Shown: positions 3 through 63,078 of the stretch, piece by piece
How positions within the stretch are numbered: position 1 is the stretch's first letter
Layout: the number at the start of each line of letters is the position of its first letter
Assembly: GCF_014197755.1 (NCBI RefSeq)
Contig: NZ_JACIGE010000012.1
Location: 62,001-126,000 of the forward strand
DNA length: 64,000 nucleotides
Direction: 5' to 3'
From: Rhodocyclus tenuis
Lineage (GTDB): Bacteria > Pseudomonadota > Gammaproteobacteria > Burkholderiales > Rhodocyclaceae
Made by a program: the position numbers and the translations under genes
Notes under the pieces: generated by a model
The model's input: only the letters and a program-made list of their open reading frames with translations
Database searches by the model: none
Told to the model about the DNA's origin: nothing

Positions 3-443
3 GTGGCGCGTTCGCTGGCACAGGTCGGCCTTGCCGAGCACGCCGACAAGAAGCCGCTGGCCCTGTCGGGCGGCATGGCGCAGCGCGTGGCGCTGGCCCG
101 CGCGCTGGCGCGTGCCCCGGAAATCATCTACCTCGACGAGCCTTTTTCCGCGCTCGACGCGATCACGCGCGAGTCGATGCAGGATCTGCTGCTCGAACTG
201 GCGCAGCACCATCAAAGCGCCGCGCTGCTGGTGACGCACGACATCGACGAGGCCCTGCGCATCGGCGACCGCGTGCTGCTGCTGGCGCGTCCGCAGGCCG
301 AGCAGCCGGCGCGGATCGTCGGCGAATGGCGCCCCGGGGGGGCCGCGCCGCGCAAACACCGTTCGAGCGCGCTGAACGCGATGCGCGAAGAAATCCTCAA
401 CACCCTCTCCGACCCTTCCGCCACCTGGTATCCCGCCCTTTAA
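3..443 (+). CDS. ABC transporter ATP-binding protein, C-terminal part (cut by window edge)
   Basis: This is the C-terminal part of the nucleotide-binding subunit of an ABC importer; the Walker A half lies before the window. The signature [15 protein letters not shown], Walker B IIYLDEP, the D-loop SALD and the switch histidine in LLVTHDIDEA are all visible. The signature and switch are typical of the SsuB/TauB/NrtD class that energises uptake of nitrate, sulfonates or taurine. It ends 10 bases before the binding-protein gene and is followed by a permease, so the three make one transporter. The substrate cannot be told from the sequence. The downstream cooC and cooS genes suggest it may serve the same process. 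Confidence 0.9.
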   Translation: MARSLAQVGLAEHADKKPLALSGGMAQRVALARALARAPEIIYLDEPFSALDAITRESMQDLLLELAQHHQSAALLVTHDIDEALRIGDRVLLLARPQAEQPARIVGEWRPGGAAPRKHRSSALNAMREEILNTLSDPSATWYPAL

Positions 444-453
444 GGAGCCTGCC

Positions 454-1650
454 ATGAACGATCTCGATCATCTTGCCCACGACCTGCCCGTTTCCCGTCG
501 TGACTTTCTCCGTCTGTCGGCGCTGCTCACCGGCGCCATCGCGCTGCCCGGACTTGCCCGCGCCGCCAATCCCGACGATCCGGTGCGCATCGGCTACCTG
601 CCGATCACCGACGCTTCGCCGCTGCTCGTCGCGCACGCGCGGCAGCTGTTCGAGCAGCAGGGGCTGAACGTCGAGGCGCCGCGCCTGTTCCGCTCCTGGG
701 CGCAGATCGTCGAGGCGTTCATGGCCGGTCAGGTGAACGTCGTGCACCTGCTTTCGCCGATGACGATCTGGGCGCGCTACGGCAGCCAGTTCCCCGCCAA
801 GGTCGTCGCCTGGAACCACATGTCGGGGTCGGCACTGACCGTCGCGCCGACCATCCAGAGCGTCAAGGACCTCGGCGGCAAGAAAGTCGCCGTGCCGTTC
901 TGGTACTCGATTCACAACGTCGTACTGCAGCACCTCTTGCGCGAAAACGGGCTGACCGTCGTCACCAAGCCCGCCGACAGCCTGAAAGCGAACGAAGTGG
1001 CGCTGTCGATCATGGCGCCGGCCGACATGGGGCCGGCGCTGGCCAACGGTGCCATCGCCGGCTTCATCGTCGCCGAACCCTTCAACGCCGCCGCCGAAAC
1101 CAACGGCATCGGCCGCGTGCTGCGCTTTACCGGCGACGTCTGGCGTGAGCACGCCTGCTGCGTCGTCACCATGCACGAGCGCGACCTCAAGGACCGTCCG
1201 GAATGGTCGCAGAAGGTCGTCAATGCCGTCGTCAATGCGCAGCACTGGCTGCGCGACAACCGCAAGGAGGGCGCGCAGCTGCTGTCGAAGGACGCGCCGG
1301 GCAAATACACGCCGTTCCCGCCGGCCGTGCTCGAACGCGTGCTGGTGCCCAACGCCGAGCGTAGCCAGCAGTACGTCAGGGAGGGGGCGATCCGCCATCC
1401 TGAGTGGAAGGACGAGCGCATCGAATACCAGCCCTATCCGTTCCCGTCTTACACCGAGCAGCTGGTCAAGCTCTTGAAGAACACGCAGGTCGAAGGCAAC
1501 AACCAGTTCCTGTCGGCGCTCGATCCGGCCTTCGTCGCACGCGATCTGGTCGACGACCGCTTCGTCAGGAAGTCGATCGCCACTCTGGGCGGGCTGAAGG
1601 CTTTCGGTCTGCCCGAGAAGTTCACGCGCAGTGAAACGATCGTTGCCTGA
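454..1650 (+). CDS. ABC transporter substrate-binding protein, NitT/TauT class, Tat signal
   Basis: Periplasmic binding protein of 398 residues for the ABC transporter encoded on both sides. The N-terminus carries a twin-arginine motif (SRRDFLRLSALL) followed by a hydrophobic stretch ending at ARA, so export is probably by the Tat pathway in folded form. The mature part begins PVRIGYLPITDASPL, which resembles the NrtA/CmpA/SsuA group. The start ATG follows an AAGGAG ribosome site. The ligand is unknown: the group binds nitrate, bicarbonate, sulfonates or pyrimidine precursors. The gene order ATPase, binding protein, permease and the cooC-cooS genes downstream suggest a dedicated substrate. 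Confidence 0.9.
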   Translation: MNDLDHLAHDLPVSRRDFLRLSALLTGAIALPGLARAANPDDPVRIGYLPITDASPLLVAHARQLFEQQGLNVEAPRLFRSWAQIVEAFMAGQVNVVHLLSPMTIWARYGSQFPAKVVAWNHMSGSALTVAPTIQSVKDLGGKKVAVPFWYSIHNVVLQHLLRENGLTVVTKPADSLKANEVALSIMAPADMGPALANGAIAGFIVAEPFNAAAETNGIGRVLRFTGDVWREHACCVVTMHERDLKDRPEWSQKVVNAVVNAQHWLRDNRKEGAQLLSKDAPGKYTPFPPAVLERVLVPNAERSQQYVREGAIRHPEWKDERIEYQPYPFPSYTEQLVKLLKNTQVEGNNQFLSALDPAFVARDLVDDRFVRKSIATLGGLKAFGLPEKFTRSETIVA

Positions 1651-1660
1651 GCCTGCGCCG

Positions 1661-2428
1661 ATGTCGTCACTGGCTTCTGTCCACGCCCGCTCGCTCGCCT
1701 ATCCGTTCATCGGGCTTGGCCTCGGCCTCCTGCTCTGGTGGCTGCTGGTGCACGGCGTCGGCGGGCAATCGCTGATGGCGGCGCGGTTTTCACCGGAAAA
1801 CACGTGGAGCGCCGCCGTTCAGCTCTGGCAGGGGGGCGAAGTCTGGGACCACGCCTGGGCCAGTTTGCGCCGTGTCGCGCTAGGCCTCGCCTGCGCATTG
1901 TTGTTCGGTGTGCCACTCGGCCTGCTGGTCGGCAGCTGGCGGGATTTCAACCAGTCGACATCGACGCTGTTCCAGTTCCTGCGCATGATTTCGCCGCTAT
2001 CGTGGATGCCGGTGGCGGTGATGGCGCTCGGCGTCGGCGAAGCGCCGGTTGTCTTCCTGCTCGCTTTTGCGGCGGTGTGGCCGATCGTGCTCAACGTCTC
2101 GGCCGGCATTGCGGCGATCGATCCGCAATGGCTGACGCTGGCCGACAGCCTCGGCGCCAATCGCCGTGAAAAGCTGTGGCGGGTCACCGTACCGGCGATC
2201 GCCGCGCACCTGCTCACCGGCATCCGTCTGGCGATCGGCCTGATCTGGGTCGTGCTGGTGCCGGCCGAGATGCTCGGCGTCAACGCCGGGCTCGGCTATT
2301 TCATCCTCGATACGCGCGATCGCATGGCTTACGGCGAGTTGATGGCGACCATCCTGTTCATCGGACTGCTCGGTTTCGTCCTCGACTGGCTGGCGCGCGA
2401 GGCCCACCGGCGCTGGGCCGGGCAGTAA
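1661..2428 (+). CDS. ABC transporter permease, SsuC/TauC class
   Basis: Inner-membrane permease of about 255 residues with six or so hydrophobic segments. The cytoplasmic coupling loop is recognisable (DSLGANRREKLWRVTVPA), matching the EAA loop of SsuC/TauC-type permeases. The ATG at 1661 is preferred; a GTG at 1631 in the same frame would overlap the binding-protein gene by 20 bases. It completes the transporter formed with the two preceding genes and lies 22 bases before the flavoprotein gene, so all are probably cotranscribed. Confidence 0.88.
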   Translation: MSSLASVHARSLAYPFIGLGLGLLLWWLLVHGVGGQSLMAARFSPENTWSAAVQLWQGGEVWDHAWASLRRVALGLACALLFGVPLGLLVGSWRDFNQSTSTLFQFLRMISPLSWMPVAVMALGVGEAPVVFLLAFAAVWPIVLNVSAGIAAIDPQWLTLADSLGANRREKLWRVTVPAIAAHLLTGIRLAIGLIWVVLVPAEMLGVNAGLGYFILDTRDRMAYGELMATILFIGLLGFVLDWLAREAHRRWAGQ

Positions 2429-2450: not shown

Positions 2451-3608
2451 ATGTCCGAGTACACAGACCCCAATTCTTCCAGCCTTAGCGATGCTTCCGC
2501 GGACATCGCCAGACTGATCGCCAGCGAGCTGGCGCCGCGCGTCTGCGCCATCGATCTCGAAGGCGAGTATCCGGAAGGTTTTCTGCGTCAGCTCGGCCAG
2601 CTCGGTGGTTTCGCCGGCGTCGTTGCGCCCGCGTTCGGCGGCAATGGCAAGGGCATTGTCGACACCATCGGCGTCATCGCGCAGGTCGGCGAAAGCTGCC
2701 TGTCGACCGCGTTCGCCGTGTGGTGCCAGACTGCGTGTGCCCGCTATCTGCAGCTTTCCGACAACACGGCGCTCAAGGCCGAGCTGCTGCCGGCGCTGGT
2801 CAGCGGCAGGCAGCTCGGCGGCACCGGGCTGTCCAACACCTTGAAGTCGTGTTGCGAGATCGAGCGTCCGCTGCTCGTCGCCACTCGGGTCGACGGCGGC
2901 TATGAAATCAGCGGCACCCTGCCGTGGGTTTCCAATCTCGGCAACGACCATGTTTTCGTGAGCGCCTGCCCGGTCGACGGCGACGGACGCCTCGTCTTCT
3001 TTGTGGTGCGCTGCGATCAAGCGGGCTTCCGGCTGCTCGATGGCGCGCATTTCGCGGCGCTTGAAGGGACGCGCACGCTGGCCTGCCAGTTCCGCCGCGT
3101 GTTCATCGCCGACGGCAGCGTGCTCGCTCATCCCGAGCAGTCCGCCGAATATCTGGCGCGCATCCAGCCGGGGATGATCCTCGCGCAGCTTGGCATGGGT
3201 ATCGGCCTCGTCCGCGACTGCATCCGGTTGATCGACAGTGCCGGGCGGACGCACGCGCACATCAACTGCTTCGAAGAGGATCAGGTGGACAGCTTGCATG
3301 CCGCGCTCGCTGCCGCCGCCGCCGAAGTCGACCGGCTGGCACGACGGCTCGATGCCGGTTATGCGGTCGATGAGCGGGCGCCGACGCTGCTCGACATACT
3401 GCGCGTCCGGCTGGCCGGCGGCGAGCTGTCCTTGCGCGCCGCGCAGGCGGCCTTGCTGCATCAGGGCGCGCGCGGTTACCTGCGCACCGCGGGGGCCCAG
3501 CGCCGGCTGCGCGAGGCCTGCTTCATCGCCATCGTCACCCCGTCGCTGAAGCACCTACGCCGCGAGATCGCGCGCCGCGAAGCGGCCGCGGAGCGCCTCG
3601 CGGCGTAG
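2451..3608 (+). CDS. acyl-CoA dehydrogenase-like flavoprotein without the usual catalytic Glu
   Basis: Protein of 385 residues with the acyl-CoA dehydrogenase fold: an N-terminal helical part (LRQLGQLGGFAGVVAPAFGG), a middle beta domain (GTLPWVSNLGNDHVFVSA) and a C-terminal helical part. Near the C-terminus the family segment with QxxGGxGY and a YEGT-like catalytic motif is replaced by LHQGARGYLRTAG and IVTPS (residues 361-365), so the catalytic glutamate of short-chain enzymes appears to be missing. It could instead be an FMN/FAD monooxygenase-like relative (SfnB/DszC type) or a flavin binding protein. It sits between a sulfonate-type transporter and cooC. The substrate is unknown. Confidence 0.75.
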   Translation: MSEYTDPNSSSLSDASADIARLIASELAPRVCAIDLEGEYPEGFLRQLGQLGGFAGVVAPAFGGNGKGIVDTIGVIAQVGESCLSTAFAVWCQTACARYLQLSDNTALKAELLPALVSGRQLGGTGLSNTLKSCCEIERPLLVATRVDGGYEISGTLPWVSNLGNDHVFVSACPVDGDGRLVFFVVRCDQAGFRLLDGAHFAALEGTRTLACQFRRVFIADGSVLAHPEQSAEYLARIQPGMILAQLGMGIGLVRDCIRLIDSAGRTHAHINCFEEDQVDSLHAALAAAAAEVDRLARRLDAGYAVDERAPTLLDILRVRLAGGELSLRAAQAALLHQGARGYLRTAGAQRRLREACFIAIVTPSLKHLRREIARREAAAERLAA

Positions 3609-3694: not shown

Positions 3695-4573
3695 ATGTGT
3701 ACGCAGCATCCGGATGGACACACGCACAGCCATAACCACGGCCAAACGCATGCCCATGGCGATGCGCAGCCGCATGACGCAAGCGGCACGCGGGCGCCGC
3801 TGCGCATAGCCGTGGTCGGCAAGGGCGGAGCCGGCAAGACGACGATCGCCGGCGCGCTGGCGCGCGTGCTGGCGACGCGTGGGCTGCGCGTGCTGGCGAT
3901 CGACGCCGACCCGGACGCCAATCTTGCCTCTGCCCTGCCGCTCGACCACGGCGAATTGCCGCTGCCGCTGGCGCAGCAGCCCGAACTGCTGCACCAGACG
4001 AACGAAGCGGCCGCAATTCCCGACGGGCTCTTCCTGCTCAATCCCGATACCGGCTCGTTGCTGCCGCAGAGCACGGTCGCCTGGGGTGGCGGCCAGTCGC
4101 TGGTGGCGCTCGGCTGGGGTAAGGGTGGCGGCGAGGGCTGCTATTGCGCCGAGCATGCGCTGCTGCGTCGCGTTCTCTTCAAGGCCAGCGCGGCGACGGC
4201 CGACGTCACGCTGATCGACAGCGAAGCCGGCCTCGAACACCTGAGTCGCGGCACGATCGCCGGCGTCGACCTGCTGCTTGTCGTCGTCGAACCCGGTCGG
4301 CGCAGCGTCGAGACCGCGGCGTCAGTCCGCCAACTGTCGGCGGCGCTGGGCATCGCGCACGTCCATTGCGTCGTCAGCAACTACCGCAGTCCGGCGGAAC
4401 TCGCGACCATTCGCGGCTGGCTGGGCGACTGGCCGCCGGTGGCGGCTTTCCCCTTCGACGACGCGGTGCGGCTGGCCGACCTCGCCGGCGTGCCGCCGCA
4501 GCTCGCCGGCGAATTCCTGCACGCGGCCGAACATCTGGCCGACTTTGCCCTCGCGCTGGAGCGTGCCGCATGA
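3695..4573 (+). CDS. cooC: CooC, nickel-insertion ATPase for CO dehydrogenase, with His-rich N-terminus
   Basis: CooC is the MinD/ParA-type ATPase that helps place nickel in the C-cluster of CO dehydrogenase. The protein has 292 residues. The deviant Walker A motif GKGGAGKTT lies at residues 42-50, the IDADPDANL switch at 69-77, and the paired cysteines of the CxC metal site at 149 and 151 (GCYCAEH). Unusually, residues 1-30 hold eight histidines (5, 9, 11, 13, 15, 19, 21, 27), like the nickel-binding tail of CooJ or HypB, fused in front of the ATPase. The ATG has a good AAGGAG site. The stop overlaps the cooS start by 4 bases (ATGA), so the two are translationally coupled. Confidence 0.93.
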   Translation: MCTQHPDGHTHSHNHGQTHAHGDAQPHDASGTRAPLRIAVVGKGGAGKTTIAGALARVLATRGLRVLAIDADPDANLASALPLDHGELPLPLAQQPELLHQTNEAAAIPDGLFLLNPDTGSLLPQSTVAWGGGQSLVALGWGKGGGEGCYCAEHALLRRVLFKASAATADVTLIDSEAGLEHLSRGTIAGVDLLLVVVEPGRRSVETAASVRQLSAALGIAHVHCVVSNYRSPAELATIRGWLGDWPPVAAFPFDDAVRLADLAGVPPQLAGEFLHAAEHLADFALALERAA

Positions 4574-6498
4574 GCCCGGAAGAACTCAAGGCCTACCGCA
4601 AATCCTTTCCGTCGAAGGCCGACGTCCTCGCCAAAACGCCCGATCCGGCCGTACGCCAGATGCTAAAGCGCCTCGACGAGATCGGCGTCGAGACGGTTTT
4701 CGACCGCTTTGACGCACAGAAAGCACATTGCGGCTACGGACTTGAAGGTACCTGCTGCCGTATCTGCAACATGGGTCCGTGCTCGGTGACGACGAAAAGT
4801 CCGCGCGGCGTCTGCGGCGCCGACGCCGATGTGATCGTCGCGCGCAACATCCTGCGCTGGGTTGCCGCTGGTGTCGCCTCGCACGGCGCGCGCGGACGCG
4901 AGGTGCTGCTGGCGCTGAAAGCGGCGGCTGAGGGACGCCTCGATCGCCCGATCCGGGGCGTCGACAAGACACGTGCGGTGGCGAAGTCCTTCGGTCTCGA
5001 TGTGGACAACAAGAGTATCGAGCAGCTGGCTGGAGAAATTGCCGACATCCTGCTCGAGGATTTTTCACGCGCGGTGCCCGGCATCCATCGCACGCTGCAG
5101 GCGCTGGCGCCGCCCGAACGCATCGCCCTGTGGCAGAAACTCGACATCCTGCCGATCGGCGCCTACCACGAGGTGTTCGAGGCGCTGCATCGCACCGGTA
5201 CCGGCACCGACGGCGACTGGGAAAATCTGATGAAGCAGCTGCTGCGCTGCGGACTCGCTTTCGCCTGGACCAGCGTGCTCGGCTCGTCGATCGGCATGGA
5301 CATCCTGTTCGGCCCGCCGAAGCGCGACACGATCTCGGCCAACCTCGGCGCTCTCGACCCCGACTACGTCAACATCGCCATCCACGGCCATTCGCCGGTA
5401 CTGCCGATGACGATCGTCGAAGCCGGCGACGATCCCGAATTCCAGCAGCTGGCCCGCGACGCTGGCGCCAAAGGAATCCGTTTCTTCGGCATCTGCTGCT
5501 CGGGCTTGTCGTCGCTTTACCGCCACGGCGGCATCAGTCCGCTGGCCAACGCGGTCGGCGCCGAACTGGTGCTCGGTACCGGCGCCATCGACCTGTGGGT
5601 CGCCGATGTGCAGGACGTCTACCCGGGGATCATGGAGGTGGCGAAGTGCTTCCACACGCGCGTGGTGACGACCAGCGATTCGTGCCGTCTGCCGGGTGCC
5701 GAGCACATCGCCTTTGACCACCAGCACAGCAATCTCGCCGAGGCGCGCGAACTCGCACGAACCATCGTCACTCTCGGCATCCGCCAGTATCCGTTACGCC
5801 ACGCGGCGAACGTTTTCGTGCCGCGTCAGCAGATGGCTGCCGAGATCGGCTTCTCGGTGGAGAACATCGCCTCCGCATTCGGCGGGCTTGGCAAGCTGCT
5901 CGAAAAGCTGAGAAGCGGGCAGATTCGCGGAGTCATCAATCTGGTCGGCTGCAACAATCCGAAGGTGCTTTACGAAAAGACGGTCAGCGACATCGCTGAC
6001 GGGCTGCTTGCCGCCGACATCCTGATCCTGACCAATGGCTGCGCCTCATTCCCGCTGCTCAAGCTGGGTTTCTGCAACGCCGAGGCCAGGGTCAAGGCCG
6101 GTGCCGGACTCCGCTCGGTGCTCGACGAGTTCGCTTTGCCGCCGGCACTGCACATGGGCGAATGCCTCGACAACGCGCGCGCCTCGGGGCTGTTCCGCGC
6201 GCTTGCCGATCTCGCCGGACAGCCGATCAAGGCGATGCCTTTCGCCTTCGCCAGTCCCGAGTGGAGCAACGAAAAAGGTGTCGGCGCCGCCCTTGGTTTT
6301 CGTCTGATGGGAATCTCGTCCTTCCACTGTGTACCGGCACCCATCGGCGGCTCGGCCGCCGTCTCGCGCTTTTTCTACGAGGACAGCGAGGCACTGCTCG
6401 GCGGCAAGATGGTGGTCGAGCTCAATCCGCAAAGGCTCGTGCAACGCATCGTCGAGGATCTGGATCGGCGCCGGCAGAATCTGGCGGGTGTTGCATAA
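4570..6498 (+). CDS. cooS: CooS-type Ni-Fe carbon monoxide dehydrogenase, altered C-cluster
   Basis: Cytoplasmic homologue of the monofunctional CO dehydrogenase, 642 residues (family about 630-640). Cysteines 54 and 62 match the D-cluster ligands; 63, 66, 71 and 82 match the B-cluster. For the Ni-Fe C-cluster the IHGHSP histidine region (272/274), GICCSG (309/310), VGCNNPK (461), TNGCA (491) and LHMGECLDN (532) are present, and Lys569 matches the catalytic lysine. The family motif D(Y/V)QC is here DVQD, with Asp349 where a C-cluster cysteine is expected. The histidine ladder for protons is also mostly lost (H105, then R108, E111, L114). No cooF, cooA or hydrogenase genes are seen. CO oxidation is therefore uncertain; the alignment was made by eye from memory of the family. 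Confidence 0.9.
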   Translation: MSPEELKAYRKSFPSKADVLAKTPDPAVRQMLKRLDEIGVETVFDRFDAQKAHCGYGLEGTCCRICNMGPCSVTTKSPRGVCGADADVIVARNILRWVAAGVASHGARGREVLLALKAAAEGRLDRPIRGVDKTRAVAKSFGLDVDNKSIEQLAGEIADILLEDFSRAVPGIHRTLQALAPPERIALWQKLDILPIGAYHEVFEALHRTGTGTDGDWENLMKQLLRCGLAFAWTSVLGSSIGMDILFGPPKRDTISANLGALDPDYVNIAIHGHSPVLPMTIVEAGDDPEFQQLARDAGAKGIRFFGICCSGLSSLYRHGGISPLANAVGAELVLGTGAIDLWVADVQDVYPGIMEVAKCFHTRVVTTSDSCRLPGAEHIAFDHQHSNLAEARELARTIVTLGIRQYPLRHAANVFVPRQQMAAEIGFSVENIASAFGGLGKLLEKLRSGQIRGVINLVGCNNPKVLYEKTVSDIADGLLAADILILTNGCASFPLLKLGFCNAEARVKAGAGLRSVLDEFALPPALHMGECLDNARASGLFRALADLAGQPIKAMPFAFASPEWSNEKGVGAALGFRLMGISSFHCVPAPIGGSAAVSRFFYEDSEALLGGKMVVELNPQRLVQRIVEDLDRRRQNLAGVA

Positions 6499-6548: not shown

Positions 6549-7439
6549 CTACAAGCCGCGCGCCCACGCCGGCCGCAGTTGCGCCGCTTGCGGCTCGGCG
6601 ATGGCCTGGCGCACCTGGGTGAGCAGTCGCTCCTTGTCGGCGCCGAGCGTGCCTTTGAGCACCAGCCAGTTGCTGGCGTGGTCGGAGCGGAAGACCGTGC
6701 GCCGCAGTTCCAGTGCGGCCAGCAGCTGCTCCATTTCGCGGAACAGCCCGGCCTGATCGAGCGGCTGCCACTCGGGAAAAGCGGTGCGCAAGCGCGCTTC
6801 GCCGAGCGGAAAGCTGACCACCAGCGTCGACAGAAACTCGGGCTGCGTGGCGTTGGCCAGACGCGCCGAGTTCTGCGCATGCTGGGCGCTGAGGGTCGTG
6901 CCGCCGAGGCCGTTGAGGATCATCACCGAACGCGTGATGCCGGCTTCGCCGAGCTTGTCGAGCGCCGCGCGCGCGCTGGCGAAGTCCTCACCCTTGTTCA
7001 CTCTGGCGAGCACGCTGTCGTCGCCCGATTCGGCGCCGACGTAGGCGAGCGCGAGCCCGGCTTCGCGCAGGGCGACGAGTTCGGCGACGCTTTTCTTCTT
7101 CAGGTTGCGCGGCAGGCAGTAGCTGGCGACGCGATGCACCGCCGGCAGGTGGTGGCGGATGGCTTGCAGATAGACGAGCAGGCGCCGCGTCGGCAGTACC
7201 AGCGCGTCGCCGTCGGCGAGAAAGACGCGGCGCACTTCATTGCCGTAAAGCTCGCCGCAGCGGCGGATGCTGTCGAGTACCTCGTCCTCGCTGCGCGCAC
7301 GGAATGCCTTCTGTGGCGCCGTGTACATCTCGCAGAAACTGCAGCGGTTCCACGAGCAGCCGTCGGTGAGCGGCAGGATCAGCGATTGCGCCTCGCTCGG
7401 CGGGCGAAAGACGGGTTCGACGTAGCGGATCGGCGGCAT
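6549..7439 (-). CDS. radical SAM protein
   Basis: Protein of 296 residues with the CxxxCxxC iron-sulfur motif (CSWNRCSFC) near residue 30, which identifies the radical S-adenosylmethionine superfamily. The following region (GLALAYVGAESGDDSVL, then SVMILNGLGG) fits the TIM-barrel core of the B12-type/YgiQ-like branch, but there is no B12 domain. The reaction is not known. It is convergent with cooS and reads toward it, with about 50 bases between the stops, so it is not part of that operon. Confidence 0.85.
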   Translation of the reverse strand: MPPIRYVEPVFRPPSEAQSLILPLTDGCSWNRCSFCEMYTAPQKAFRARSEDEVLDSIRRCGELYGNEVRRVFLADGDALVLPTRRLLVYLQAIRHHLPAVHRVASYCLPRNLKKKSVAELVALREAGLALAYVGAESGDDSVLARVNKGEDFASARAALDKLGEAGITRSVMILNGLGGTTLSAQHAQNSARLANATQPEFLSTLVVSFPLGEARLRTAFPEWQPLDQAGLFREMEQLLAALELRRTVFRSDHASNWLVLKGTLGADKERLLTQVRQAIAEPQAAQLRPAWARGL

Positions 7440-11453: not shown

Positions 11454-12743
11454 ATGCAGACGCAATCGCAGCTTCGCCACCCGTTCCGCAGGCTGGCCGT
11501 AGCGCTCGGGCTGGCCGCGACGCTCGCTGGCGGCCCGGTGCTGGCCGCCGAGAAGGCCCAGTTCACCGACTGGGGCTGGCCGCAGCCTTACGAGAAAGTG
11601 TCGGAGAAATCGATCAACTGGCTGAAGGACAAAGGCTGGTGGCCGCTGACGGTGGCCTGGCAGCCGCCGTTCTCCGGCCAGAACGCCAGCCTGGTGACGA
11701 TCAACCGCCTCGACTTCCTTGCCAAGCGTGGCCTCGAAGCGAAGTTCCAGGCGTTCAATTCCGGCCCCGACATCAATGAAGCGATTACCTCGGGCAAGGC
11801 GCAGGTTGGCAACGGCGGCAACTTCCCGCTGACGACGCTGATCGACAAGAACGTGCCGATCAAGGTGGTCGGCATCACCGCGCCGAACCTCAAGCACCAG
11901 ACGATCGTGCCGAACGATTCGCCGGTGAAGAGCCTGAAGGACTTCAAGGGCAGCAATCCGCCGGCGGTGATCGGCATCGTTACCGGCTCGTCGGCCGAGT
12001 TCTACTTCCAGATCGCCGCTGCCGAGAACGGTCTCGCCGTCGGCCGCGACGTGGTGCTGAAGAATCTGCCGCTGTCCGAGCAGATCCAGTTGCCCAAGGG
12101 CATCGCCGCTGTCGTGCCCTGGGATCTGACGGCCAGCCTGATCACGCAGGAAAAGAAGACCGGTCGTTCGATCGACGTCAGCTATCCGTACAACATCTAT
12201 CAGGGCAGCTACTACCTGCGTCAGGAACTGGTCGACAACGTTCCCGACGTGGCGCAGGCACTGACCGACGCGCTGATCGAAGCGAACCTGTGGATCCGCC
12301 TCAACCCCGAGAAGACCGCCGACCTGCTCGGCGAAGAGCCAAACCTGAAGAACGTGCCGAAGACGCTGCTGCTGCAACAGGTGCAGGAGTACAACAACCT
12401 GTACAAGCCGACCTATGTGCATCCGACGCCGGCTTTCTGGGGCCAGGAGAACGCGCGCATCGCGCAATGGCTGAAGCAGGGCAACCGCCTGCAGCGTACG
12501 CTGACGGCGAAGGACTACGAAAACGCCTTCGCGCCGCAGTTCGCCGACAAGGCCTTCGCCAAGCTGGGCTGGAAGATACCGACCCAGCCCGCCGCGATTC
12601 CGAAGAACTGGAGCGGCAAGGTCGGTCAGCACCCCTATCCCGAGTACGACACCTACCTGACCCTGAAGGCGCCGCAAGCCTTCCCGGAAAAAGGTGACCT
12701 GACCAAAGCATGGCAATTCAACGGCAAGAGCTTCAAGCCTTGA
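11454..12743 (+). CDS. ABC transporter substrate-binding protein, sulfonate/nitrate class
   Basis: Periplasmic binding protein of 429 residues, longer than SsuA or TauA (about 320). A Sec signal peptide ends near VLAAEKAQ. The body has the type II binding fold seen in this class (SGPDINEAITSGKAQVGNGGNFPL and SPVKSLKDFKG). The ATG follows a GAGAGGGAAAA site. It overlaps or abuts the permease gene and is followed by an ATPase, giving a full transporter (11.4-14.4 kb). The ligand is not certain; sulfonates, sulfate esters or nitrile-like compounds are candidates. Confidence 0.87.
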   Translation: MQTQSQLRHPFRRLAVALGLAATLAGGPVLAAEKAQFTDWGWPQPYEKVSEKSINWLKDKGWWPLTVAWQPPFSGQNASLVTINRLDFLAKRGLEAKFQAFNSGPDINEAITSGKAQVGNGGNFPLTTLIDKNVPIKVVGITAPNLKHQTIVPNDSPVKSLKDFKGSNPPAVIGIVTGSSAEFYFQIAAAENGLAVGRDVVLKNLPLSEQIQLPKGIAAVVPWDLTASLITQEKKTGRSIDVSYPYNIYQGSYYLRQELVDNVPDVAQALTDALIEANLWIRLNPEKTADLLGEEPNLKNVPKTLLLQQVQEYNNLYKPTYVHPTPAFWGQENARIAQWLKQGNRLQRTLTAKDYENAFAPQFADKAFAKLGWKIPTQPAAIPKNWSGKVGQHPYPEYDTYLTLKAPQAFPEKGDLTKAWQFNGKSFKP

Positions 12744-13606
12744 GTTCGTCCGAATTGACTGCCGGCCGGCATTCCCGCAGCCCGGGGGATGCCGGTTTCA
12801 ACATCCAGACGCCGCGCGTGCCCACTTTCCTCAGCCTTTCCCTGCGCAAGCTGCGGCAGTTCGGTTTCGTCTCGCTGCTCATCCTCGCCTGGCAGTACAT
12901 CAGTGGTGTCTGGTTGCCGGCGGTCGACGCCACTCTGGTAACCCTGCTGCCGCCGCCATCGGCGGTAGCACTGGCCGCTCGCGACCTGATCGTCTCCGGC
13001 GAGCTGCCGGCGCACCTGTGGGCCAGCCTGCAACGCGAACTGATCGCCTTCGCTTTCGCGCTGGCGGCGATCCCGCTCGGTATCGCCATGGGCTGGTGGA
13101 AATGGGTCAACGAGCAGATCGATCCGCTGATCGAGACGCTCCGGCCGATTCCGCCGATCGCCTGGATTCCGCTGTCGATCCTGTGGTTCGGCATCGGCGA
13201 CGCACAGAACCAGTTCATCATCTTCCTCGGCATCTTCTTTCCGATCCTGATCAACACCGTCACCGGTGTGAAGGGCATCGAAACCAACCTGATCCGCGCC
13301 GCGCAGTCGCTCGGTGCTTCGCAATGGCACATCCTCACGCGCGTCGTGCTGCGCGCGGCGCTGCCGCAGATCCTCACCGGCATCCGCGTCGGCTTCGGTT
13401 TCGGCTGGATGGCGCTGGTCGCTGCCGAACTGGTCGGTGCCAGCAGCGGGCTGGGTTTCCTGATCAACGACGCACGCTCGGTGCTGCGTACCGACATCAT
13501 TCTCGTCGGCATGCTCACCATCGGCTTTACCGGTTTCCTCATCGACACGCTGGTGCGCAAGCTGGCGCGCCGGCTGTTGCCGTGGTCGCTGGCCGCCACC
13601 CGCTAA
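12710..13606 (+). CDS. ABC transporter permease, SsuC class
   Basis: Inner-membrane permease of about 298 residues with hydrophobic segments and the EAA-type loop AQSLGASQWHILTRVVLRAALP. The ATG at 12710 lies inside the binding-protein gene (34-base overlap). A TTG at 12740, which overlaps the upstream stop as TTGA, is a good alternative and would shorten it by 10 residues. It pairs with the ATPase 10 bases downstream. Confidence 0.88.
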   Translation: MAIQRQELQALSSSELTAGRHSRSPGDAGFNIQTPRVPTFLSLSLRKLRQFGFVSLLILAWQYISGVWLPAVDATLVTLLPPPSAVALAARDLIVSGELPAHLWASLQRELIAFAFALAAIPLGIAMGWWKWVNEQIDPLIETLRPIPPIAWIPLSILWFGIGDAQNQFIIFLGIFFPILINTVTGVKGIETNLIRAAQSLGASQWHILTRVVLRAALPQILTGIRVGFGFGWMALVAAELVGASSGLGFLINDARSVLRTDIILVGMLTIGFTGFLIDTLVRKLARRLLPWSLAATR

Positions 13607-13616
13607 GGATCCACGC

Positions 13617-14420
13617 ATGGGTACCCTGATCGTCGACCGCGTCGGCAAGACCTATCCCGGCAACAAGACCGGGGAGCAGACCGTGGCTCTCGACGGCGTC
13701 AGCTTTACCGTCGCCGACAACGAATTCTGCGCACTGCTCGGGCACAGCGGCTGTGGCAAGACGACGCTGCTCAACCTGATCGCCGGCTTTGAGCAACCCG
13801 GTAGCGGATCGATCACGCTCGATGGCGTGCCGGTGCGCAGGCCGGGACGTGAACGGGCCGTCGTCTTTCAGGATTACGCGCTCTTTCCCTGGCTGACGGT
13901 CGAGGGAAACATCCGCTTCGGTCTGGAAACGCAGGGCAGGATCGCGGCGGGCGAGCGCCAGCGCATCGTCGACGAGCACATCCGCCTGGTCGGGCTCGCC
14001 GGTTTCGAGCGGCATCTGCCGCACCAGCTTTCCGGTGGCATGCGCCAGCGCGTCGCCATCGCCCGCGCGCTGGCCACCGACCCGCAGGTGCTGCTGCTCG
14101 ACGAGCCTTTCGCCGCGCTCGACGCGCAGAACCGCTTGCTGATGCAGGACGAGCTGGCACGCATCTGGGCTTCGGAAACGAAGACGATGTTGCTGGTTAC
14201 GCACAGCATCGAGGAAGCGATCAGGCTCGCCGATCGCATCGTCGTCCTCAGCCGGCGACCGGGCCGCGTCCGGGAAAACATCGTCGTCGATCTGCCGCGT
14301 CCACGGCACGAGGATTCCGCCGGTTTCATCGCGCTGCGCCGTCACATCCGGAATCTGCTCAACGACGAGCCGGCCGATCAACTTGCTGTCGAGGCCGCGA
14401 GCGTCTTTCCTCTCGCCTGA
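13617..14420 (+). CDS. ABC transporter ATP-binding protein, SsuB class
   Basis: ATPase of 267 residues. Walker A GHSGCGKTT, Q-loop VVFQDYALFPW, signature LSGGMRQRVAIARAL, Walker B VLLLDEPFAALD and switch LLVTHSIEEA are complete. It closes the operon 11454-14420 and is followed by a strong hairpin. The IRLADRIVVLSRRPGRV tail is typical of nitrate/sulfonate/taurine ATPases. Confidence 0.93.
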   Translation: MGTLIVDRVGKTYPGNKTGEQTVALDGVSFTVADNEFCALLGHSGCGKTTLLNLIAGFEQPGSGSITLDGVPVRRPGRERAVVFQDYALFPWLTVEGNIRFGLETQGRIAAGERQRIVDEHIRLVGLAGFERHLPHQLSGGMRQRVAIARALATDPQVLLLDEPFAALDAQNRLLMQDELARIWASETKTMLLVTHSIEEAIRLADRIVVLSRRPGRVRENIVVDLPRPRHEDSAGFIALRRHIRNLLNDEPADQLAVEAASVFPLA

Positions 14421-61537: not shown

Positions 61538-61914
61538 ACCCGCCTTGCTGGCGTAACGGTGAACTGAACTAGCGCAGGCTCATCGGCTGATCCTCTCGTC
61601 GGGCAGCATGGTGATTTTCGTACGCGGAATCATCATCATGCCCAACGCCAGCCCTTGCGCAAATTCCTTCTCCGCTCTTCCCGCAACGCGCCACGCAACG
61701 CACGCGGCAAGCGTCGCCATTGCCGGCGATCGCTGCGTCGCGCTCCTGTCCTTGCTGGTATTGCTCGCGCAGGCGATCGAAGGCCTGCTGCATTGACGGC
61801 GGCGTTTCGTCGCTACGTTTGCTTCAGGTAGCGGCCGCTTTCGTCCGCCTGTTGCAGTTTGCGCACTCGTCCTGCCGACGCCGGTGCCGTCGACCATTCT
61901 CGGGCGAATGTCAT
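61538..61914. other. gap after the peroxidase gene, possible broken small gene
   Basis: No whole gene is seen. On the minus strand two overlapping frames each look partly protein-like: one starts MQQAFDRLREQYQQGQERDA (from 61793 down), the other ends GLALGMMMIPRTKITMLPD (to 61580). A single frameshift between them would join these parts into a protein of about 70 residues. Neither has a ribosome site or recognised family, so this may be chance. Confidence 0.25.
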
Positions 61915-61935
61915 AACCATTTGATCATAATGGTT
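61915..61935. promoter_or_regulatory. inverted repeat upstream of bchX
   Basis: AACCATT and AATGGTT are 7-bp arms around TGATCAT, followed by TTTCTT. It could be an operator or a weak terminator for the upstream region. The TTGAT half in the centre recalls an FNR half-site. It lies about 160 bases before bchX. Confidence 0.45.
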
Positions 61936-61967
61936 TTTCTTGGGTTTCTTTCGCTTGCGGAAAGCGT

Positions 61968-62004
61968 TGTCTTGAGTTGACAGGGCGCCTTCGCAGAGTA
62001 AACT
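61968..62004 (+). promoter_or_regulatory. probable bchX promoter with overlapping inverted repeat
   Basis: TTGACA at 61977-61982 and TAAACT at 61999-62004, spaced by 16, form a likely sigma-70 promoter. TGTCTTGAGTTGACA at 61968-61982 is an inverted repeat (TGTC/GACA) covering the -35 box. Its TGT...ACA ends recall the CrtJ/PpsR site, but the spacing is 9 instead of 12. It probably controls the bch genes by oxygen or light. Confidence 0.5.
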
Positions 62005-62076
62005 TGCGCGCTCGACAAGACGCACCCAGCTGATGCGGCCGTATTCGCGACGTATTTGGGAGGGTTTTCATTGGAG

Positions 62077-63078
62077 ATGGGTGAGATGACGCAAGGCCAG
62101 GACAAGTCCGTGCAAGCGCTCGTGCGCAACGACATTGCCGCGCAAGGCAGCGACAACGGAGCAGGAAACGCACGGCAGACGCAGATCATCGCGATCTACG
62201 GCAAGGGCGGCATCGGCAAGAGCTTCACGCTGTCGAACCTCTCTTACATGATGGCGCAGCAGGGCAAGCGCGTCCTCCTCATCGGTTGCGATCCTAAGAG
62301 CGACACCACCTCGCTGCTGTTCGGCGGGCGCAGCGTGCCGACGATCATCGAAACCTCGGCGCGCAAGAAGGCCGCCGGCGAGGAAGTGAGCATCAGCGAC
62401 GTCTGCTTCAAGCGCGACGGCGTGTACGCGATGGAGCTGGGCGGGCCGGAAGTCGGTCGCGGCTGCGGTGGGCGCGGCATCATCCACGGCTTCGAACTGC
62501 TCGAAAAACTCGGTTTCCACGAGTGGGACTTCGACTACGTGCTGCTCGACTTCCTTGGCGACGTCGTCTGCGGCGGCTTCGGTCTGCCGATCGCGCGCGA
62601 CATGTGCCAGAAGGTGATCGTCGTCGGCTCCAACGACCTGCAGTCGCTCTACGTCGCCAACAACGTCTGTTCGGCGGTCGATTACTTCCGCAAGCTTGGC
62701 GGCAACGTCGGTGTCGCCGGCATCGTCATCAACAAGGACGACCATACCGGCGAGGCGCAGGCTTTCGCCGCGGCGGCCGGCATCCCGATCCTCGCCGCCA
62801 TTCCCGCCGACGAGGACATCCGCCGCAAGAGCGCCGCCTACGAAATCATCGGCCGTCCCGACGGCCAGTACGGCCCGATCTTCTCCGATCTGGCGCAACA
62901 GGTTGCCGACGCGCCGCCGGTGCGGCCGACGCCGCTGTCGCAGGAAGAACTGCTCGGCCTGTTCTCGAGCTCGGCGGTCGGCCGCGACGTCGTGCTTGAC
63001 CCGGCCTCGGCCGCCGACATGCGTGGCGGCAAGCTGGTCGTCCAGCCCTCGCTCGAAGTCGTCTACGAAAGCGAATGA
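62077..63078 (+). CDS. bchX: BchX, chlorophyllide a reductase iron protein
   Basis: ATP-dependent Fe protein of chlorophyllide a reductase, the nitrogenase-like enzyme that makes bacteriochlorophyll a. The 333 residues show the NifH-type P-loop YGKGGIGKS, the 4Fe-4S cysteines in GRGCGGRG and DVVCGGFG, and the switch GCDPKSDTT. The start is uncertain: GGGAGGG (62058-62064) suits a TTG at 62071, while ATG 62077 or 62086 are also possible. The stop overlaps bchY by 4 bases. Cytoplasmic, oxygen-sensitive. Confidence 0.95.
   Translation: MGEMTQGQDKSVQALVRNDIAAQGSDNGAGNARQTQIIAIYGKGGIGKSFTLSNLSYMMAQQGKRVLLIGCDPKSDTTSLLFGGRSVPTIIETSARKKAAGEEVSISDVCFKRDGVYAMELGGPEVGRGCGGRGIIHGFELLEKLGFHEWDFDYVLLDFLGDVVCGGFGLPIARDMCQKVIVVGSNDLQSLYVANNVCSAVDYFRKLGGNVGVAGIVINKDDHTGEAQAFAAAAGIPILAAIPADEDIRRKSAAYEIIGRPDGQYGPIFSDLAQQVADAPPVRPTPLSQEELLGLFSSSAVGRDVVLDPASAADMRGGKLVVQPSLEVVYESE

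Follow-up and report, generated by a model that had tools for sequence, protein, structure and literature searches.

A clade B CooS with an aspartate in place of a cluster cysteine in a transporter-flavoprotein operon of Rhodocyclus tenuis, and its possible role in sulfur acquisition

The 64,000-nucleotide stretch of Rhodocyclus tenuis DNA analysed here (contig NZ_JACIGE010000012.1, positions 62,001 to 126,000; hereafter the window) begins inside an operon whose last gene, cooS, encodes a homologue of nickel-containing carbon monoxide dehydrogenase (Ni-CODH). The gene order is CMD-ATPase-substrate-binding protein (SBP)-permease-flavoprotein-CooC-CooS, with successive gaps of 7, 10, -20, 22, 86 and -4 bases (Table 1), the start of cooS and the stop of cooC overlapping by 4 bases. 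A preliminary description of the window, made from its letters, had placed cooS in an operon with a transporter and a flavoprotein, not with cooF or hydrogenase genes, and the annotated operon genes agree: none encodes CooF, a hydrogenase or ACS. That description had overlooked cooC directly upstream of cooS and the extension of the operon beyond the start of the window.

Table 1 The cooS operon and its upstream neighbours. Positions are those of the window unless preceded by L010, a stretch of the same contig that reaches upstream of the window.
Feature	Position	Strand	Remark
AraC regulator	L010:13976-14908		upstream of the window
CMD/AhpD-like protein	L010:15057-15617		upstream of the window
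NitT/TauT-type ABC ATPase, C-terminal part	3..443	+	full gene starts upstream, L010:15625-16443 (contig 61625-62443)
SBP, NMT1_2 (sulfonate/nitrate/taurine) family	454..1650	+	Tat-like signal below Pfam cut-off
ABC permease	1631..2428	+	
Acyl-CoA-dehydrogenase-family flavoprotein	2451..3608	+	
CooC-type P-loop ATPase (nickel-insertion factor)	3695..4573	+	named by position and by similarity to the ATPase beside other CooS genes
His-rich N-terminal extension of CooC	3695..3796	+	8 His in 34 residues
Clade B CooS (Ni-CODH homologue), 642 aa	4570..6498	+	ATG at 4570, stop at 6498; from ligand alignment, family models and tree
Asp349 codon GAC	5614..5616	+	replaces the ligand equivalent to CODH-II Cys333; from alignment

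The window CooS passes the family model for anaerobic CO dehydrogenase (TIGR01702; 507.8 bits, cut-off 478) and matches PF03063 (Prismane) with 458.5 bits, and 36 distinct PDB CODH sequences match it at E ≤ 1e-80. A search of the whole genome found no second CooS match. Cluster names were assigned to its residues via the numbering of CODH-II. D349 aligns with the cysteine of the DVQC/DYQC motif in solved CODHs, and the claim that an aspartate stands in place of Cys333 was borne out, with correct coordinates and frame. So was the accompanying claim that the remaining ligands and the catalytic lysine are kept: C54 and C62 of the D-cluster, C63/C66/C71/C82 of the B-cluster, H272, C310, C461, C491 and C532 of the C-cluster, and the acid-base residues H105 and K569 are all present. 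The D-cluster is of type II, its motif Cys-(X)7-13-Cys-Cys reading C54-X7-C62-C63.

To place this substitution in its family, 84,980 species genomes were scanned once, which yielded 304 stretches encoding a CooS relative. The best 80 of the 304, together with the Ruminococcus albus and window proteins, made up an alignment of 82 rows (locus L048 is not among them). Column 349 holds Asp in 81 rows and Glu in one, while all other cluster ligands and H105 are invariant; the aspartate is thus far from a chance replacement. K569 is likewise kept in 82/82 rows. The preliminary description had allowed that another cysteine, at position 360 or 372, might prove to be the true ligand, and the alignment speaks against both. 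Cys360 occurs in 82/82 clade B rows and in 3/4 other-clade rows that retain the normal ligand cysteine, and is therefore no substitute for it; Cys372 is present in only 6/82 clade B rows. After H105 the proton-ladder positions read R108, E111 and L114, as described before. The loss of this ladder says little, because position 108 is Arg in 44/82 rows and His in 38/82; position 111 is Glu in 81/82. No His-rich terminus is found on the window CooS, which has 0 His before the domain and ends in RRRQNLAGVA, and 56 of the 82 clade B proteins have at least 5 His before the domain if the most upstream start is assumed. The CooC of the window was considered as an alternative carrier of the His-rich region of its clade and rejected: it has 8 His before the P-loop, and its five relatives have from none to about five, which makes no clearly conserved feature.

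In CODHs, Cys526 is a ligand of nickel, Cys295 and His261 are ligands of Fe1, and Cys333 is a ligand of an iron in the [3Fe-4S] part; the window equivalents are C532, C310, H272 and D349. Since C532, C310 and H272 are invariant, the aspartate would alter the far corner of the cluster and not its Ni/Fe1 face. Because these three residues are invariant and cooC adjoins cooS, it seems likelier that the cluster contains nickel and has one iron ligated by Asp than that nickel is lost, and we consider it quite likely that the clade B enzyme retains the metal.

The window protein is a new member of clade B, a known and uncharacterised group of Ni-CODHs. In the available portions of the survey that defined its groups (Inoue 2019, PMC6344411), Asp at the second C-cluster cysteine is tabulated for groups B-2 and B-3 and Asp/Glu for B-1, the clade B groups have a type II D-cluster and catalytic His and Lys, and NitT/TauT ABC transporter genes are grouped with all of clade B, metal import being supposed. 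The suggestion that the aspartate might mark one clade with a shared gene neighbourhood is confirmed, and had already been published there. D349 sets the window protein apart from the CO-oxidising clades E/F with their complete C-cluster of five Cys and one His. The same survey names Ruminiclostridium and Caldicoprobacter as clade B genera. In our tree of 61 rows, the window protein falls together with those of Ruminiclostridium (L039) and Ruminococcus (L087; L008, which is R. albus), and six other-clade rows stand apart; the tree holds none of the survey's own accessions, 27 rows were omitted as likely redundant without a row-by-row check, and the outgroup row L097 is only 37% filled. The CooS of Caldicoprobacter (L026, outside the tree) is 64% identical to that of the window. 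The nearest annotated relative is the R. albus cooS on pRUMAL02 (56.8% identity), which is preceded by SBP, permease and ATPase genes and has a His-rich N-terminus.

Within the tree the window CooS and five others (L012-L016) form a clade with an SH-aLRT of 100, whose members are apparently all Pseudomonadota. A cooC match is found in all six members, whereas the remaining 76 loci of clade B, some of them short, gave none. The accessible text of a 2026 eLife paper states that clade B awaits any biochemistry, that its role is unknown and that maturases are missing from almost all of its operons save a small early-branching cluster (PMC13056359); a second 2026 survey, as far as available, also calls the role unknown (PMC13240472). 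The window operon is not maturase-free, and its cooC would fit the stated early-branching exception. CooS is rare around the window: among 399 genomes of the order it occurs in that of the window only, and of 61 relatives a single further genome gave a match, at 33%, while the two congeners gave none.

What is new here is the sulfur-gene context of clade B cooS. In our search of the open literature in PMC, none of the papers found connected clade B CODH with sulfur assimilation or with SAM riboswitches, or described a paired flavoprotein/CooS operon. In a Geobacteraceae metagenome-assembled genome (MAG; L022), cooS is preceded by genes for an O-acetylhomoserine (OAH)-sulfhydrylase-type protein (469 bits, cut-off 495), MoeB/ThiF, JAB, sulfite reductase (NIR_SIR) and CysP, and followed by SBP, permease, ATPase, CysT, CysW, CysA, CysH and MnmA genes. 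The run lies on one strand, interrupted solely by one called reverse open reading frame of 90 aa, and its CysP, CysT, CysW, sulfate-transport ATPase, CysH and MnmA exceed their family cut-offs. A second Geobacteraceae MAG (L024) repeats the order cysP-cooS-ABC-cysT-cysW-ATPase. In Chlorobiaceae, an OAH sulfhydrylase gene precedes cooS (L034, 598 bits, cut-off 495; L032, with a response regulator between). In clostridial L023, genes for LarE, Rid and two cystathionine lyases precede cooS-ABC, L026 being nearly identical in arrangement; L018 and L019 carry NifS 3-4 kb downstream of cooS; and in the isolate assembly of Thiobaca (L013) the ABC genes are preceded by a regulator of the CysB/Cbl type (434 bits, cut-off 402). 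As a separate observation, the L022 run includes a MoeB/ThiF-type E1 gene and a JAB-domain gene (L022:6312-7596), as in sulfur-carrier systems.

To quantify this context, 81 clade B loci, 43 of which have 5 kb on both flanks, were compared with 27 other-clade cooS loci, 23 of which come from the family of Clostridium luticellarii. Genes of the PF01053 type (homocysteine synthase, cystathionine lyase) lie near cooS in 13/81 clade B loci versus 0/27 (Fisher p=0.035), and any of PF01053, CysT/CysP, sulfite reductase or CysH in 15/81 versus 0/27 (p=0.020). Taken singly against 0/27, CysT/CysP (3/81), sulfite reductase/CysH (2/81) and NifS (4/81) are not significant. PF01053-type matches are concentrated close to cooS, with 17 within 5 kb (667.8 kb) versus 1 at 5-10 kb (499.3 kb; two-sided binomial p=0.001); some of the queries were taken from the same loci, and a single query from the window's genome gives the same 17 versus 1. 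An SBP gene is near cooS in 68/81 clade B loci versus 0/27 other-clade loci. We also considered PF01077 genes as a guide to whether sulfite or sulfide is the product, and dropped them, as they were found in 14/15 cooS genomes.

A regulatory link to sulfur comes from S-adenosylmethionine (SAM) riboswitches. In two isolate assemblies, C. luticellarii (L041, recurring as L096; 89.5 bits) and Clostridium sp. D53t1 (L051; 68.5 bits), a SAM riboswitch (RF00162) lies between a 12/12 match to a sigma-70-type promoter and the start of cooS, with no gene between. A scan finds a terminator-like hairpin after the riboswitch in L051; in the L041 leader a terminator was seen by eye and is absent from the scan. 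The 11 Clostridiaceae genomes hold 74 RF00162 elements, 1 to 30 each. Since C. luticellarii has 30, the chance of such an element before a given gene is below 1/100 there, and about 0.2% on average, if about 3,500 genes per genome are assumed. In another genome (G859) a SAM riboswitch precedes an ABC operon whose best matches, below cut-offs, are MetN/MetQ and which ends 2.8 kb, or two other genes, before the ABC-cooS operon. Elsewhere, a SAM riboswitch precedes the neighbouring pyridoxal-phosphate enzyme gene on the opposite strand in Chlorobiaceae L032 and L034, and a T-box precedes a divergent cystathionine-lyase-type gene in L033. A sulfur link of clade B cooS, by genes or by regulation, occurs in several phyla, within the limits of 15/81 loci and 2 of about 60 leaders.

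The transporter of the window also occurs without cooS. Among 300 genomes of the window's order, 34, the window's included, match its SBP at E ≤ 1e-30, and the ten best others were fetched and inspected. All seven loci with an SBP tblastn identity of at least 59% encode a CMD-like protein, the flavoprotein, ATPase, SBP and permease, three of them also AraC. The fetched stretches of these seven gave no match to cooS or cooC; one of them, L156, ends soon after the flavoprotein. The other three loci (about 45% SBP identity) have two permeases and no flavoprotein match. An annotated acyl-CoA dehydrogenase family gene also stands beside ABC genes on plasmids of Bartonella, Roseomonas, Methylocystis and Pseudonocardia, the Roseomonas plasmid adding CMD and the Pseudonocardia plasmid rhodanese and an LLM flavoprotein. 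The window operon thus looks like a transporter-flavoprotein module to which cooC-cooS has been added, and a substrate with a CooS-free use argues against a dedicated nickel importer. A flavoprotein beside cooS was rejected as a general feature, for the window query finds it only at the window, L012 and L017; two Lachnoanaerobaculum loci (L054, L070) carry a protein that clusters with it by sequence. The flavoprotein distantly resembles characterised acyl-CoA dehydrogenases, a desulfinase and SfnB (TIGR04022; 32 bits, cut-off 431). In the SBP, W82, H122 and the vicinal pair C235-C236 are invariant across 54 cooS-linked rows (the window and 53 of the 68 non-window rows extracted), which is unusual for an exported binding protein.

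Taken together, these observations point to clade B CooS, that of the window included, as an oxygen-labile enzyme of sulfur acquisition, and we give this reading, with the import, Ni-Fe reduction and flavoprotein counterpart described here, a probability of roughly 60%. A sulfur role as such is probable, judging by the neighbouring genes and riboswitches. The sulfonate-type ABC transporter would import a sulfur-containing anion, and CooS, fed with low-potential electrons via its B- and D-clusters, would reduce this anion at the Ni-Fe cluster and set free sulfite or sulfide. Sulfite reductase, homocysteine synthase and cystathionine enzymes could then build the freed sulfur into cysteine and methionine. 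The aspartate at the second ligand would leave the Ni/Fe1 reactive face intact and change the far-corner iron, either tuning the potential or allowing the cluster to open for a bulkier substrate. Reductive cleavage of a C-S bond, or of a CO2-like C=S bond, is a tentative assignment, and a sulfonate as the substrate is more tentative still. In the cooS-free relatives, presumably aerobes, the same transporter would feed the acyl-CoA-dehydrogenase-type flavoprotein, and the window operon may carry both enzymes, the flavoprotein for oxic and CooS for anoxic conditions. The window genome has a heme-copper oxidase gene and a sulfite/nitrite-reductase-type gene. It is tempting to speculate, with somewhat less than even confidence, that clade B comprises widespread oxygen-labile Ni-Fe-S organosulfur reductases that supply anaerobes with assimilatory sulfur, an equivalent of isethionate reductase built on the CODH scaffold, with the Asp-ligated cluster as their catalytic signature, and that the window pairs an oxic and an anoxic enzyme for one substrate.

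Several points weigh against a sulfur role. Within 5 kb, 66 of the 81 clade B loci have none of PF01053, CysT/CysP, sulfite reductase or CysH, and beyond the ABC genes or neighbours without annotation nothing was seen in these remaining loci. The p-values serve merely for orientation: the rows are related, so that independence is overstated, both 5-kb flanks are present in 43 of the 81 loci, and most of the controls come from one family. Among about 60 distinct clade B loci scanned for riboswitches, some with short upstream flanks, a SAM riboswitch stands directly before cooS in two, and neither the window nor its proteobacterial kin has any Rfam match. On the window's own contig, the sulfhydrylase-like gene is separated from the downstream cooS by 8.5 kb, too far to count in the 5-kb measure, and scores below its family cut-off. 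The cooC match is confined to the six-member proteobacterial clade, which restricts the nickel link to that clade, and a sulfur role of the flavoprotein would follow from distant family resemblance. The SBP may also import metal, given its invariant His and Cys and the apparent zinc of its closest solved relative, 3un6. Finally, in the available part of an iron study of C. difficile, the ssu operon and cooS change separately (PMC6311696), although that cooS adjoins cooF and its clade B identity is not established there.

Other explanations have to be weighed against the same data. The substrate might be a small sulfur or nitrogen compound resembling CO2 (carbonyl sulfide (COS), thiocyanate, cyanate or a thiocarboxylate) that is reduced to CO or another C1 product and H2S or NH3. 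This reading varies the sulfur role by giving it another chemistry, and such CO2-like chemistry is plausible since C310, C532, H272, H105 and K569 are invariant in 82/82 rows. Among the ligands of SBP relatives are small anions, for example nitrate and bicarbonate, and Ensign is said to have described in 1995 the reactivity of R. rubrum CODH with CO2, COS and CS2. However, COS requires no transporter, and we know of no flavoprotein that replaces CooS beside the same transporter for substrates of the COS, thiocyanate or cyanate type; we therefore regard this explanation as unlikely. A transporter that brings nickel or another metal for a CooS with some other function, as the available part of the 2019 survey hypothesises (PMC6344411), would account for the invariant H122, C235 and C236 in the 54 SBPs, for 3un6, whose title apparently reports zinc, and for the His-rich N-termini of 56/82 clade B proteins. 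It leaves the sulfur-gene neighbours and the SAM riboswitches unexplained, and members of the same SBP subfamily occur next to a flavoprotein where CooS and CooC are lacking, which makes a metal importer rather improbable.

Two further explanations turn on the enzyme itself. CooS of clade B could be a hybrid-cluster-like stress enzyme, reducing hydroxylamine or a similar compound in the manner of CooS-V of Carboxydothermus hydrogenoformans, where a C-cluster cysteine has likewise given way to a carboxylate (Cys295 to Glu, according to the accessible text of PMC9311411). It is a different ligand that is replaced here, Cys310 (the equivalent of Cys295) and His272 being invariant in 82/82 rows, and the annotated part of the neighbours includes no nitrogen-oxide stress gene; we think this very unlikely. 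Nor do we give much more than a slim chance to an ordinary CO dehydrogenase in which Asp simply stands in for Cys333. All catalytic residues are kept and cooC adjoins cooS, but the annotated operon genes are without CooF, hydrogenase or ACS, and the transporter context extends through the clade (68/81). The preliminary description had also judged an ordinary CO oxidiser improbable and another substrate possible, with which the neighbourhood would agree.

Further genes around clade B cooS are recorded here in their own right. On the window's contig, an OAH-sulfhydrylase-like gene on the same strand (L010:10764-12077), 45 bits under the TIGR01326 cut-off, is possibly a divergent member of that family. 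Next to it lie a variant radical SAM protein gene (NF045502; L010:12094-13344) and a gene for a 159-aa protein without family match (L010:13354-13833), a pair that recurs after cooS-ABC in Desulfuromonadales L021 (8525-9739 and 9770-10216; 56% and 37%). A radical SAM protein gene (PF04055; window 6549-7439, minus strand), below all NCBIfam cut-offs, is convergent with cooS, and 5 kb downstream lies a second NitT/TauT-type ABC operon of SBP, permease and ATPase (window 11454-14420), whose SBP scores 61.5 bits against the SsuA model. A Lachnospiraceae MAG has two cooS genes about 1 kb apart (L077:1494-3341 and 4366-6270), one of clade B (56% identity) and the other with 33% identity. A small protein adjoins cooS, usually with a second small protein, in L008 (13916-14598), L064, L069, L075, L080 and L087; the R. 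albus copy (L008) is without Pfam match.

If the sulfur role is true, clade B would leave CO metabolism, and its counting among CO-utilisation genes in surveys would have to be corrected. Anaerobic sulfur scavenging would gain a further metal chemistry, and the Asp ligand a meaning open to test. With 304 stretches encoding a relative in one scan of species genomes, the family is a sizeable one, and its role becomes a directly testable question.

Among known systems, the alkanesulfonate and sulfone systems SsuEABCD and SfnB combine a NitT/TauT importer with a flavoprotein, as the window does. They differ in that the window operon adds CooC-CooS and that its flavoprotein scores far below the TIGR04022 cut-off. 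With group B-2 of clade B, the window shares the type II D-cluster, the His-Cys-Asp-Cys-Cys-Cys C-cluster pattern, catalytic His and Lys, NitT/TauT ABC genes and a CooS without His-rich tail; the window's own clade differs in having CooC adjacent, and the window and L012 also have the flavoprotein, while a sulfur role is not given in the available description of the group (PMC6344411). CooS-V, of clade D-1, has the same CODH fold with one C-cluster cysteine turned into a carboxylate, and showed no CO/CO2 activity and no Ni (PMC9311411, as far as available). An assignment of the window to the CooS-V type was rejected: Cys295 is changed to Glu there and the Cys333 equivalent to Asp in the window, which keeps C310, and the accessible text on CooS-V does not mention an ABC operon. 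The nearest functional parallel would be the isethionate reductase IsrBHDK with SsuCAB, as the excerpts of that study describe it (PMC11423573). This nitrogenase-like enzyme frees sulfite from isethionate anaerobically for sulfur assimilation, and a second route that depends on oxygen is suspected. It has a nitrogenase scaffold and a radical SAM partner and belongs to another protein family; the likeness is by function, in that a metalloenzyme goes with a sulfonate ABC importer and has sulfur genes close by. Its role, too, was inferred from the gene neighbourhood, and then shown by mutants.

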